In this document: piece after piece, positions 22,352-26,705 of the stretch
Layout of the letters: every line of letters starts with the position of its first letter
Numbering within the stretch: position 1 is the stretch's first letter
DNA from: Thermococcus aggregans
GTDB lineage: Archaea; Methanobacteriota_B; Thermococci; Thermococcales; Thermococcaceae
Direction: 5' to 3'
Assembly (NCBI RefSeq): GCF_024022995.1
Contig: NZ_CP099582.1
Coordinates: 310,001-374,000 of the forward strand
DNA length: 64,000 bases
Made by a program: the position numbers and the translations under genes
Notes under the pieces: generated by a model
Told to the model about the DNA's origin: nothing
What the model saw: the letters and a program-made list of their open reading frames with translations, nothing else
Database searches by the model: none

Positions 22352-22882
22352 TCACTTCTTGAACTTCTCCTTGTAAAGCTCTATCGCCCTAAGTATCTCC
22401 TGCTTTGCCCTCTCCGCGTTTTCCCATCCTTCAACAATGATCTCCTTTCCTTGAAGTTCCTTGTACCTCTTGAAGAAGTGTGCAATCTCGTCAAGAAAGG
22501 CCTTTGGAACGTCGCTTATGTCCTTCCAGTCGTCGAAGTATGGGTCTTCCACTGGAACTGCCAGTACCTTGTAGTCCTTGTCGCCACTGTCTATCATCTT
22601 GAAGAGGCCTATTGGCCTTGCCTCAATGAGCACTCCGGGGTAAGTTGGTTCCCTCATGATGACCATAATGTCGAAAGGATCGTCATCCTCATACCATGTT
22701 TGTGGGATGATTCCGTAGTCGACTGGGTAATAGAACGGGCTGTAAAGGACTCTATCGAGCTTTATTAGGCCGGTCTTTTTGTCAAGCTCGTACTTGTTCC
22801 TGCTTCCCTTTGGGATCTCTATCAGGGCATAAACAACTTCTGGTACTTCCGGTCCGGGCTCCAAATCATGGAATGGATTCAT
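22352..22882 (-). CDS. ppa: Inorganic pyrophosphatase
   Basis: This 176-aa family I soluble pyrophosphatase has the catalytic signature DDDPFDIMV, plus [26 protein letters not shown] and [11 protein letters not shown]. It hydrolyses pyrophosphate to drive biosynthetic reactions. The ATG at 22882 has GAGGTGAT upstream; the GTG at 22891 lies within that site. Downstream, rpo7 follows after 32 bases, so it may share a transcript. Confidence 0.96.
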
Positions 22883-22965
22883 CTCAATCACCTCTTTGGT
22901 TTTCAGAAGATTTAGTTATAAACCTAACCCAAAAGTTTGTATCTGCTTTTAGCTTTTAAGGTTAG

Positions 22966-22992: not shown

Positions 22993-23148
22993 ATGAGGTT
23001 CTTTTTGAGAGGCTATACTTTAAGTGTTTTGACAGTTTTTCTGTTTATTATCGTATTGCCTGTCGCAGAGTTAATGCAAAATCGATACATCATCAGTAGT
23101 AATCAACTTTTTGGAGGAAAACTTTTTATCATAGTTACTGAATTATAA
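22993..23148 (+). CDS. Single-pass membrane peptide, leaderless
   Basis: A 51-aa reading begins MRFFLRGYTLSVLTVFLFII and has one strong hydrophobic segment after a basic N-terminus, then a short polar tail ending IIVTEL. There is no ribosome binding site, but a TATA box lies at the distance expected for a leaderless start. The stop is 16 bases before the next gene, whose binding site follows it. I recognise no family. The position suggests it is the first gene of the small operon that includes the Ala/Gly-rich peptide and the SpoIIM-like protein. Confidence 0.5.
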   Translation: MRFFLRGYTLSVLTVFLFIIVLPVAELMQNRYIISSNQLFGGKLFIIVTEL

Positions 23149-23164
23149 TTGCTGGTGGTAACTA

Positions 23165-23437
23165 ATGTGGAGGAAAGCTTTAGCGTTGGGTCTGGTGTTA
23201 ATGGCTCTGGGAGTTGTGGTTGGAGGGGCAGTGGAAAAAGCGGAAGTAGGACTAGTGTTTGCAAAAGACTATCTGATAGATAAAGGAGCAACAGTAGCTG
23301 GAGCTGGAAGCGCGCTTGCAACTGCAGGTGGAATTGTGTATGGTATGGTAAAGACAGGGTTAGTCGCAAAATTTGCCTTGGGATGTGCAGTAGCAGGACT
23401 GGGAGTGGCTGCTATTGGAGTTGGAGTAGCATTGTAA
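23165..23437 (+). CDS. Ala/Gly-rich hydrophobic secreted peptide, bacteriocin-like
   Basis: The 90-aa product starts MWRKALALGLVLMALGVVVG, a short signal-like segment. The remaining 65-70 residues are rich in Ala, Gly and Val with few charges (VEKAEVGLVFAKDYLIDKG, then ATAGGIVYGMVKTGLVAKF). Composition and size resemble precursors of circular, helix-bundle bacteriocins. The ATG has GGTGGT upstream. It is followed by a small membrane protein and a SpoIIM/DUF95 protein, partners typical of circular bacteriocin loci. I could not align it to a named peptide, so the function is inference; a membrane or pilin-like role remains possible. Confidence 0.6.
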   Translation: MWRKALALGLVLMALGVVVGGAVEKAEVGLVFAKDYLIDKGATVAGAGSALATAGGIVYGMVKTGLVAKFALGCAVAGLGVAAIGVGVAL

Positions 23438-23452
23438 GTCAATTATGGGGGG

Positions 23453-23785
23453 ATGAAAGTGGAAAAATTGATTGTCTTCAGTTTGTCTTTAATTTTTTCC
23501 GTTGGAATACTAGTAGCAACCTATGTGAATACCAAAAGAATAATTGTTAAGCCTCTAGTTCTTGCTGTTTTAGTCTCTGGAATAGCGGGGAGTCTCTTGA
23601 TTGCGCTCAACTCGTCGTTCATAGAGTATGGAACTTTTGCAATATTTCTTTGTGTGCTATTATGGGGATATAAGAACCTAATTTTCGAAAGATTTTCATT
23701 AATAAACAGGGTATGGAGCCTGCTCTCTATATTGAACCTTATCCTATTTGTCCTTGTGTTAATACACTCCACTATAAGATTATAA
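23453..23785 (+). CDS. Small four-helix membrane protein
   Basis: This protein of up to 110 aa is almost entirely hydrophobic, with about four predicted membrane segments (LIVFSLSLIFSVGILVA, VLAVLVSGIAGSLLIAL, FAIFLCVLLWGY, LLSILNLILFVLVLI). The ATG at 23453 is directly behind a run of six G. The in-frame GTG at 23459 has better spacing to that run and may be the true start. In bacteriocin clusters such proteins give immunity or help secretion; that role here is inference. Confidence 0.6.
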   Translation: MKVEKLIVFSLSLIFSVGILVATYVNTKRIIVKPLVLAVLVSGIAGSLLIALNSSFIEYGTFAIFLCVLLWGYKNLIFERFSLINRVWSLLSILNLILFVLVLIHSTIRL

Positions 23786-23803
23786 TTGGGAGAAGTGATT
23801 CCA

Positions 23804-24382
23804 ATGCCTTTCAAACACAAATTCTTTCTCTTATTCTCCCTTTTGCTTTTTCTTTCTGGATTTCTCCTGGGATTAAGCGTTTCTAAAAGTACCTATTCAT
23901 CGTACGCTCAGCTAAAGACAACAAACATTGATCCAATATTAGAAATCTTAGAAAAAGACTCCATTGGGAGCTCTCTGACGATTACATATTTATTTGTCAA
24001 CAACGCAAGAGTGGCACTACTCCTATCCTTAGGAGGAGCCTTAACATTTGGTGGCTTGACTTTCTTAAACCTAGTTTCTAATGGCATGAATCTAGGAGTA
24101 CTGTTCTACGAGGCATTAGCTTTAAACGATGTTGGAGCATTCTTCCTCCTCATTCTTCCCCACGGCATCTTCGAAATCTCAGCATTGATTATTGCCGGAG
24201 CTGCTGGTTTCAAAATTCCCTATGAGGTTTTGATGTTTGCTTTGGGTAAAAAGGAAGAGATAATCACCGAAGAAGATGCTAAGGAATTCTTCAAGCTTGT
24301 TGGAATCTCAATAGTTTTAATACTCATCGCCGCAGTAATTGAAGCAAAGGTAACGTTACAATTATCCACGCACGTGCTTTGA
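23804..24382 (+). CDS. SpoIIM/DUF95-family membrane protein
   Basis: The 192-aa protein has the SpoIIM (DUF95) layout: an N-terminal membrane helix, then FVNNARVALLLSLGGALTFG (the conserved N-N-x-R-V segment), NLVSNGMNLGVL, and LILPHGIFEISALIIAGAAG with the characteristic PHGIFE motif. The ATG at 23804 follows GAAGTGAT. DUF95 proteins are hallmark partners in circular bacteriocin clusters and also occur widely in archaea with unknown roles. Its placement after two small hydrophobic proteins supports a shared operon. Confidence 0.8.
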   Translation: MPFKHKFFLLFSLLLFLSGFLLGLSVSKSTYSSYAQLKTTNIDPILEILEKDSIGSSLTITYLFVNNARVALLLSLGGALTFGGLTFLNLVSNGMNLGVLFYEALALNDVGAFFLLILPHGIFEISALIIAGAAGFKIPYEVLMFALGKKEEIITEEDAKEFFKLVGISIVLILIAAVIEAKVTLQLSTHVL

Positions 24383-24455: not shown

Positions 24456-25745
24456 ATGATATCTAAAGAGACTTGGGGAAAAATCATAAGGGATTACTTA
24501 GAGTGGGACGTCGAACTCATTGAAAGGGATATACCCTATACCTTGCCTAGAGTACAAAGAGCACTAGTCATTATTGGGCCTAGGAGGGCAGGTAAAACCT
24601 ACTTCATGTTTCAGATACTCAAAGAACTTTTAAAGCACGGAATCGAGAAGAATGAAACGCTCTACATCAATTTAGAGGATCCACGGGTGATAGGCACCAC
24701 GCTTGAAGATCTGCTGAATTTTTTGGATGTTTACTACTCCCAATTTCCTGAAAATGCAAAGAAGCGCAACTATTTTTTCTTGGATGAAGTTCAAACAGTA
24801 GAAAACTGGGAAAAGTTCGTGAGATACCTCCTCGATAAAAACCAGCGGGTAGTTATTTCGGGCTCTTCCTCCAGGCTACTATCTAAGGAAATCGCAACCG
24901 AACTTAGGGGGAGAGGTATTTCCCTAAAAGTCTATCCATTTTCATTTAAGGAGATATTAAAATCTAGGAATCTAAAACCCGCCCCGTTTTATTCTACATA
25001 TGAGGAGGCAAAAATTAAAAAGTTGCTCAGAGAGTATCTCGTTTGGGGAGGCTATCCCGAGGTCATATTAGACTTTTCTCTCAGAAGGGAGATTCTTCGA
25101 GAGATAATTGACTTGACGATCTACAAGGATATCGTTGAGCGGTGGGGGATCATCAATATCAAGGCATTAAAGCTCCTTTTCAGGATGCTTGCGTTCTCCA
25201 CTCACCTTTCCATTTCCAAGGCATACAAAAACTTGAAAGGGATCGGCATTAATGTAGGAAAGACAACGGTTGCAAACTACTTAGAATTTCTGGAAGACTC
25301 GCTTGTGTTTTACCCCCTCAGGGTTCTAATAAAGTCATACAAGCTTCAGGAGCTGTACGGGTTCAAGCCCTATTTGGTGGACAACGGACTCTTGACAAGC
25401 CTAGGCGTCCAAGATGAGGGGAGATTGTTAGAAAACTTAGTCTTTACCGAACTTTTAAAGTCGGGCTTGGAGCCAAATAGAGACGTATTTTACTACAGAA
25501 CGAGGGATGGAAAGGAAGTGGATTTTGCTATACTGGAGAAAGGAAGGGTAAAGCAAGCAATTCAGGTTACTTATGAGCTCAATGAAAGCAACTATGAAAG
25601 GGAAATTTCTGCCTTGGTCGGGGCTTCAAAAGAGCTCAATTGCAGAGACCTGCTTCTCATAACATGGGATCAGGAGGAGACGATTAAGACGAAAGGAAAG
25701 GAAATCAAAGTTATGCCCCTGTGGAAGTGGCTCCTTTCCAAATAG
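24456..25745 (+). CDS. AAA ATPase with C-terminal DUF4143
   Basis: This 429-aa protein has a Walker A GPRRAGKT at about residue 40, Walker B YFFLDEVQ near 105 and a sensor-like ISGSSSRLL. The C-terminal DUF4143 half has EYLVWGGYPEVIL and a PD-(D/E)xK-like end (DGKEVDFAIL, then IQVTYE). Such ATPases are common and mobile in archaea; their function is unknown. A TATA box TTTATAAA at 24426-24433 lies about 26 bases before the ATG, so the transcript is probably leaderless and separate from the preceding cluster. Confidence 0.85.
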   Translation: MISKETWGKIIRDYLEWDVELIERDIPYTLPRVQRALVIIGPRRAGKTYFMFQILKELLKHGIEKNETLYINLEDPRVIGTTLEDLLNFLDVYYSQFPENAKKRNYFFLDEVQTVENWEKFVRYLLDKNQRVVISGSSSRLLSKEIATELRGRGISLKVYPFSFKEILKSRNLKPAPFYSTYEEAKIKKLLREYLVWGGYPEVILDFSLRREILREIIDLTIYKDIVERWGIINIKALKLLFRMLAFSTHLSISKAYKNLKGIGINVGKTTVANYLEFLEDSLVFYPLRVLIKSYKLQELYGFKPYLVDNGLLTSLGVQDEGRLLENLVFTELLKSGLEPNRDVFYYRTRDGKEVDFAILEKGRVKQAIQVTYELNESNYEREISALVGASKELNCRDLLLITWDQEETIKTKGKEIKVMPLWKWLLSK

Positions 25746-25751
25746 GAAAAG

Positions 25752-26705
25752 TTATTCTTTGCCCAATAACTCTCTAACAGTTTTTTCCACCGCTTGATAG
25801 CTGTTCATCTTCGGCTTCCAGCCCTTGGCTTTGGCCTTCTCAATGCTAAGGAGCATTATCTTGACATCTCCTTTCCATCCTCTTCCACCGTCAACACCGC
25901 CCGTGAAATAGAACTCCGGATTTAAGCCCATTTCCCTGCTAACTATCTCCGCTATCTCCTTCACAGTTATCCAGTCTTCACTGCCGATGTTGTAGACGTC
26001 GTAGGTTTTGTCCTCTTTGAGGAACTCGTTGAAGAGGTGCAGCATTGCTTCAACAGTATCGCTGACGTGGAGGTAGCTCTTCCTTTGCGTTCCATCGCCG
26101 AGAATCTCCAATCTGTTAGGATTTTTCTTGAGCTTGTTTATGAAATCGTAAATGACGCCGTGGTTTGATCTCTTACCTATGATGTTGGCCAGCCTGAAAA
26201 CTATGGCCTTCATGTCAAACGTGTGAGCATAGCCAGAAATCAAAGCTTCGGCAGCAAGCTTTGCCCCTCCATAGACGCTTATTGGCTCTAGGGGTCCATA
26301 GTCTTCAGGAGTTGGGAGCTTTTTGGCCTCACCGTAGACTGTTGAGGATGATGTAAATGCAAGGACTTTAACACCTTTCCTTCTCATCGCCTCAAGGAGA
26401 TTGTAAGTTATGAGTACATTAGTTTCATAGAGGAGTTCAGGGCTTTGGGAGCCAATCCTCACTTCTGGGTTAGCCGCAAGGTGAAATACAGCATCAACGC
26501 CTTTCACGGCATCTTTTACAACTTCAGGATCCCTCATATCGCCCTTGACGAACTCAAAGTTTGCATGCCCAAGCCACTGCTCAATGTTCTCCAAGCTACC
26601 AGCGCTTAAATTGTCGAGAACTCTAACTTCATAACCCCTTTCCATTAGAGCATCCACCAAATGAGAACCTATGAACCCTGCTCCACCCGTCACGAGAACC
26701 TTCAT
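25752..26705 (-). CDS. NAD-dependent sugar epimerase (UDP-glucose 4-epimerase-like)
   Basis: The 317-aa extended short-chain dehydrogenase begins KVLVTGGAGFIGSHL (nucleotide-binding GxxGxxG). The catalytic serine region is FTSSSTVYGEA and the Tyr-Lys pair is SVYGGAK. It matches archaeal GalE-like nucleotide-sugar epimerases. RBS GGTGGTGAT precedes the ATG. It is divergently arranged from the next gene and opens the surface-glycan region. Exact substrate cannot be read from sequence. Confidence 0.85.
   Translation of the reverse strand: MKVLVTGGAGFIGSHLVDALMERGYEVRVLDNLSAGSLENIEQWLGHANFEFVKGDMRDPEVVKDAVKGVDAVFHLAANPEVRIGSQSPELLYETNVLITYNLLEAMRRKGVKVLAFTSSSTVYGEAKKLPTPEDYGPLEPISVYGGAKLAAEALISGYAHTFDMKAIVFRLANIIGKRSNHGVIYDFINKLKKNPNRLEILGDGTQRKSYLHVSDTVEAMLHLFNEFLKEDKTYDVYNIGSEDWITVKEIAEIVSREMGLNPEFYFTGGVDGGRGWKGDVKIMLLSIEKAKAKGWKPKMNSYQAVEKTVRELLGKE

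Follow-up and report, generated by a model that had tools for sequence, protein, structure and literature searches.

Circular bacteriocins, such as enterocin AS-48, carnocyclin A and members of the uberolysin/circularin family, have short, hydrophobic, Ala/Gly-rich precursors, a DUF95/SpoIIM partner, a small hydrophobic protein, and an ABC ATPase and permease. The DUF95 protein is described as class-defining for these peptides (PMC13289728), and upon removal of the DUF95 protein of leucocyclicin Q the mature circular product is left inside the cell (PMC7132975). The archaeal cassette described here is similar in each of these components, its ABC transporter being a putative one, although its core sequences have no detectable relation to those of circular bacteriocins. 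It also differs in that its precursor carries a constant signal-like leader, its putative transporter would act in trans from an operon that also encodes a secreted NEW3-domain protein, and it lacks the large second membrane-protein gene of the AS-48 cluster.

In Archaea, cassettes of arCOG01996/DUF95 genes with small diverged membrane proteins are described for Archaeoglobi, Methanococci and Thermococci in passages of two earlier papers (Makarova et al. 2014, PMC4158269; 2015, PMC5898192). Two functions were suggested for them there: defence at the membrane, in which a neighbouring transporter might serve antimicrobial peptides, or membrane remodelling. The passages on these cassettes in PMC4158269 and PMC5898192 make no mention of a constant-leader/variable-core precursor, of cognate pairing or of orphan arrays; this comparison does not extend to Makarova et al. 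2019 (mBio 10:e00715-19). In all three lineages we likewise found a DUF95 paralogue accompanied by small membrane genes that are highly diverged, and the likeness to the cassettes in those passages extends to the occasional ABC transporter or AAA+ ATPase. Judged by lineage and gene content, the present loci are very probably of the same kind.

Halocins and sulfolobicins (archaeocins) are antimicrobial polypeptides that archaea secrete; where studied, immunity accompanies them. They are other proteins, from other organisms, than those of the cassette, and we know of no SpoIIM cassette for them. The 2019 article by Makarova and colleagues, from the same group as the two papers above, is reportedly a review of archaeal antimicrobial peptides. 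Little is known of ribosomal antimicrobial peptides in hyperthermophilic archaea, or of the immunity genes that go with them.

Results

Gene organization of the cassette

The window, the whole 64-kb stretch of DNA analysed here, comprises positions 310001-374000 of C1 in G000, a 1.89-Mb Thermococcales chromosome. Features of the locus are as follows (window coordinates; numbers of transmembrane (TM) segments were counted by simple hydropathy).

22352-22891, minus strand: inorganic pyrophosphatase-like gene, left flank (named by reading the sequence)
23096-23129, plus strand: promoter of the peptide gene, common to cassettes of the genus (upstream comparison)
23096-23107, plus strand: conserved upstream box GTAGTAATCAAC, part of the promoter
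23116-23129, plus strand: BRE/TATA-like element GGAAAACTTTTTAT, part of the promoter
23154-23161, plus strand: ribosome-binding site GGTGGTAA, directly 5' of the start codon, conserved in cassettes of the genus
23165-23227, plus strand: leader/signal-like segment of the precursor, MWRKALALGLVLMALGVVVGG, 68% mean amino-acid identity among 26 precursors
23228-23437, plus strand: variable Ala/Gly/Val-rich core, 69 aa, following the presumed cleavage site and hydrophobic through its last residue
23453-23785, plus strand: small multi-TM protein of 110 aa, about 3 TM segments, predicted cognate immunity protein
23786-24382, plus strand: SpoIIM/DUF95 membrane protein, 198 aa (PF01944, E=1.1e-29), start codon TTG at 23786, alternative ATG at 23804
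24456-25745, plus strand: AAA_14/DUF4143 ATPase (PF13173, E=6.8e-38), possible accessory gene
25752-26705, minus strand: NDP-sugar epimerase-like gene, right flank (named by reading the sequence)

A sequence-only reading of this DNA had proposed a circular-bacteriocin-like cluster in which a signal-bearing, Ala/Gly/Val-rich peptide of 90 aa is followed by a small membrane protein and a SpoIIM/DUF95 protein. Both downstream genes were confirmed, as was the precursor (ORF 23165-23437; 57% Ala+Gly+Val, GRAVY 1.28). Two further Thermococcales genomes, G084 and G005, have this precursor with about 85% conservation from end to end and carry the same core type (type A); G008 has a broken copy. No second peptide of this kind was found in the window among ORFs of 60-120 aa with an Ala+Gly+Val fraction of at least 0.38 and GRAVY above 0.5. 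An additional 51-aa membrane peptide, read from 22993 onwards, was not supported as a gene. In L069 and L082, both syntenic relatives, the corresponding site does not have this frame. Conservation of the DNA, at 57-68%, is lower here than anywhere else upstream, and the 3' part of the frame coincides with the conserved peptide-gene promoter.

Close orthologues of the AAA_14/DUF4143 ATPase occur in 8 of 13 genomes of the genus, every one directly 3' of the cassette SpoIIM gene. The three genomes of the genus without a cassette do not have it, nor do two with one.

Distribution of the peptide and its linkage to SpoIIM

A search of 94 Thermococcales genomes for the peptide gave 33 matches, spread over 16 genomes that often carry multiple copies. 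A SpoIIM gene of the cassette subfamily, intact or decayed, lies within 2 kb of all 33; the proteins near peptides are 49-81% identical to the SpoIIM of the window. Homologues regularly found without the DUF95 gene, which the sequence-only reading had named as evidence against itself, were thus not encountered. Cassette-type SpoIIM is present in 19 of the 94 genomes, and a second, distant SpoIIM (about 28-40% identity) in nearly all of them; no such peptide was seen alongside this conserved paralogue in the three cases examined. Some cassettes are decayed, and some genomes have tandem arrays: G084 contains five precursor genes in 9 kb and a sixth on another contig.

A scan of a genome-contig collection with the peptide alone gave no match, perhaps owing to the low complexity of the query or to a seeming absence of isolate genomes of the group there; cassettes were recovered from that collection with an alignment of SpoIIM proteins instead. 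The layout of leader peptide, small TM gene and SpoIIM is also present in Archaeoglobaceae and Methanococcales, where the leaders are different ones, seemingly conserved within each lineage. Owing to the low complexity of the sequences, cores were compared across lineages against shuffled controls. Two core pairs were strongly related (z above 7) and four more weakly (z 3.4-4.9). One Archaeoglobus core is related to a Pyrococcus core (z 7.3), as are the partners of the two (z 10), despite different leaders; among the cross-lineage core pairs, only this one also has a clearly related partner. A Methanocaldococcus core matched a Thermococcus core of another type (z 7.7), with partners not clearly related. 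On this evidence, cores seem to pass from one lineage to another and to be joined to the leader in use there.

Core and partner vary together between constant ends

The precursors share a leader of 22 aa (MWRKALALGLVLMAxGVVVGGA), and the cores after it differ strongly in sequence. Leader codons are 80% identical at positions 1 and 2 vs 52% at position 3, which points to selection on the protein rather than very recent copying alone. In the alignment, SpoIIM has a variable N-half and a nearly constant C-half. Among 19 cassettes, mean similarity was 0.85 for both the leader and the SpoIIM C-half, 0.33 for the SpoIIM N-half, 0.16 for the core and 0.11 for the partner, the small TM protein.

The variable parts change in step. 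With shared ancestry not fully corrected, core and partner were correlated across the 19 cassettes (Mantel r=0.87, p=2e-4), as were core and SpoIIM N-half (r=0.45, p=2e-4); values for core and SpoIIM C-half (r=-0.07) and for leader and partner (r=-0.04) were near zero. After dereplication to 16 cassettes, the four coefficients were 0.71, 0.27, -0.27 and -0.13, respectively. Homologues of the window's partner follow type A peptides only, except for orphan copies in G076 and G000.

A direct view of core-partner exchange is given by G000 and G074, two species of the genus, which carry cassettes at the same site. Flanking genes are 83-90% identical, the leader 85% and the SpoIIM C-half 78%, whereas core (52%) and partner (45%) are at about the level of unrelated DNA under forced alignment. 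As read from these sequences, the comparison shows the peptide and its predicted protector being swapped as a matched pair between related genomes. Exchange of this kind is a means for microbes to arm against their close relatives.

For one core type, a soluble stretch of the partner resembles that core (YHEYMELYRQALEKEDEKKARIYKSYAEEYS vs YHHYMGLYRQALLNGDITKAEYYKSLADEYKS; L075:7540-7740, L079:9010-9207 and L070:6653-6871). Immunity by mimicry is possible for such a partner.

Orphan partner genes

In G076, eight intact small-TM genes adjoin the ABC operon described below without a peptide or SpoIIM gene. Different peptide types, the window type included (57-81% to type A partners), are represented among the partners that seven of these genes match. 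This run is what would be expected of immunity genes held against the toxins of other strains, and we read it as a putative orphan-immunity array. In G000, an N-terminally shortened homologue of the 110-aa protein adjoins that genome's own ABC operon. Extra small-TM genes of the partner families are also present at the Pyrococcus-type loci L065, L077, L078 and L080. At L080 (G004), all SpoIIM genes are broken and few peptides are left, and several partner genes are intact, as if immunity had been kept after loss of the toxin.

A probable dedicated ABC-2 transporter encoded in trans

No ABC gene adjoins the cassette in the window, and the sequence-only reading had seen no dedicated ABC transporter and inferred that secretion would differ from that of bacterial systems. 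The absence of a transporter gene holds only locally. In several genomes, however, cassettes lie divergent from an operon of an ABC-2 permease, an ABC ATPase, a large, secreted NEW3-domain protein and a second permease, and in G000 this operon is found at about C1:867673-872836 (permease at about C1:871796-872836), 539 kb from the cassette. A transporter acting in trans therefore replaces secretion without one as the working assumption.

Of the 94 genomes, 15 encode a member of the first permease's subfamily (at least 60% identity), and each of these also has cassette-type SpoIIM (Fisher p=4e-14, shared ancestry not fully corrected). Cassette-type SpoIIM without this subfamily was seen in four genomes. 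In two of them, G004 and G077, the SpoIIM genes are broken; G009 retains part of a permease gene at its cassette, and the G085 assembly is only 61% complete. G004 and G009 are nearly complete and have peptides with no intact permease of the subfamily. Cassette-free genomes and G077 have the orthologous operon (ATPase 77-81%) with a different first permease (29-43%). Considering this distribution, a dedicated transporter very probably exists, either for export of the peptide or for protection against it.

At L168 and L174-L178, first permeases of different subfamilies have been swapped within an otherwise orthologous operon, in step with the presence of the cassette.

Relation to circular bacteriocins

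The Pfam scan proposed in the sequence-only reading identified SpoIIM, and no circular-bacteriocin model was matched: models in Pfam and NCBIfam (PF12173, TIGR03651 and others) hit none of 11 peptides, and PF12173 gave nothing above its cut-off in the 94 genomes. Profiles aligned with AS-48, carnocyclin A and NKR-5-3B (hhalign) scored no better than the reversed-sequence control, and a plasmid search with carnocyclin A gave no match. Membership of the circular bacteriocins was rejected by sequence on account of these family models and profile scores. Of the proposed cluster, the bacteriocin-like character and the presence of a DUF95 partner are supported.

The SpoIIM protein of AS-48 aligns to the cassette subfamily with 29% identity over 117 columns (hhalign E=1.9e-6). 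Fold predictions, made with one sequence and with 14 aligned sequences from which the closest relatives were left out, were all-helical and of a confidence (pLDDT 67.8 and 56.1, pTM 0.35 and 0.30) too low to weigh for or against the saposin-like bundle of four or five helices expected of a circular bacteriocin; a PDB fold search with the first model returned no fold match. The C-end is hydrophobic in 28 of 35 peptides vs 2 of 22 partner proteins, which is compatible with, rather than indicative of, N-to-C ligation. The cassette resembles circular bacteriocins in having a DUF95 partner and in the size, composition and hydrophobic C-ends of its cores. It may work like one, but we do not class it as a member.

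Discussion

The locus is probably a bacteriocin-like (archaeocin-type) peptide toxin-immunity cassette. The SpoIIM linkage of all 33 homologues, the covariation of core and partner and their exchange at one site support this explanation, as do the orphan array, the co-distributed permease, the cassettes of Archaeoglobi and Methanococcales and the core and partner related across lineages. Weighing against it, the peptides match no known bacteriocin family, some cassettes are decayed, and G004 and G009 have peptides with no intact permease of the subfamily. In such a cassette, the constant leader would direct the 90-aa precursor to the membrane or an exporter and then be removed, and the freed hydrophobic, Ala/Gly-rich core would enter the membranes of competing close archaeal relatives. 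The adjacent small TM protein would shield the producer in a core-specific manner, as covariation and the orphan array suggest. From covariation and co-distribution we infer that SpoIIM acts in export or maturation, its variable N-half fitting the core and its constant C-half fitting shared machinery, and that the ABC-2 transporter subfamily, in trans here, serves export or additional immunity; the ATPase may be accessory. The constant ends would permit homologous recombination to exchange the whole variable block.

As a special case of this explanation, the peptide could be a true circular, head-to-tail ligated bacteriocin. SpoIIM and its ATPase would then export a core already ligated, in the manner of AS-48 or leucocyclicin Q. 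The constant presence of a partner of the class-defining DUF95 type (PMC13289728), the trapping of mature circular product in the cell upon removal of the leucocyclicin Q protein (PMC7132975), the related SpoIIM of AS-48, and cores of about 50-90 aa, most of them with hydrophobic C-ends, speak for it. Set against these are the unmatched models and profiles, the constant signal-like leader and fold predictions that lend no support, and we regard circularisation as possible but rather doubtful.

Covariation and orphan partners are compatible with a signal-receptor or a toxin-antitoxin pair as well. An intracellular membrane toxin-antitoxin or abortive antiviral unit, whose peptide depolarises its own cell if the small TM partner fails, would agree with the view of DUF95 and variable small membrane proteins as membrane-associated defence in the relevant passages of PMC4158269, and with the toxin-antitoxin-like genes among some cassettes. 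It is unlikely considering the signal-like leader, the co-distributed ABC transporter and the orphan array, since a lone antitoxin has no obvious use unless the toxin arrives from outside. Kin recognition through a polymorphic signal peptide and its cognate receptor would explain why core and partner covary, as ligand-receptor pairs do, but the partner is a bare TM bundle with no signalling domain and eight ligand-free orphan receptors are less expected than an immunity array; we consider this quite improbable. The passages of Makarova et al. on arCOG01994 and its relatives (PMC5898192), including the arCOG01996 cassettes with small membrane proteins, propose membrane remodelling, and the cassette could accordingly form a remodelling or vesicle complex of the kind proposed for archaeal COG1300/SpoIIM paralogues. 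A housekeeping complex, however, is not expected to be patchy (19 of 94 genomes), hypervariable or accompanied by orphan partners, and the near-universal Thermococcales SpoIIM paralogue has no such peptide alongside in the three cases; this reading is very improbable.

If the toxin-immunity explanation holds, the rule linking precursor and partner predicts a protector for each peptide and provides testable pairs, together with ready-made orphan-immunity strains. It also offers a possible function for archaeal DUF95/SpoIIM paralogues so far left as defence or membrane remodelling. We tentatively propose, at somewhat less than even confidence, that hyperthermophilic archaea across Thermococcales, Archaeoglobi and Methanococcales make heat-stable membrane peptides, ligated or otherwise matured, with cognate small-TM immunity, encoded as recombining core-immunity-SpoIIM blocks behind lineage-specific leaders; these would be the first DUF95-dependent class of archaeal peptide antibiotics. 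If the cores are circular, the DUF95-dependent mechanism for circular peptides would extend to Archaea growing near 80-100 C.

Two further kinds of genes were noticed beside cassettes. A nucleotidyltransferase/HEPN-type toxin-antitoxin-like pair, named by reading the sequence, lies between cassettes in three genomes (L062:6399-7206, L070:7537-8173 and L079:7660-8467). A secreted transglutaminase-like protein (PF01841) of 451-463 aa adjoins cassettes in four genomes of the genus (L062:2537-3892, L068:11033-12424, L070:9515-10870 and L079:5130-6485); it is possibly a maturation enzyme, or a mere neighbour.
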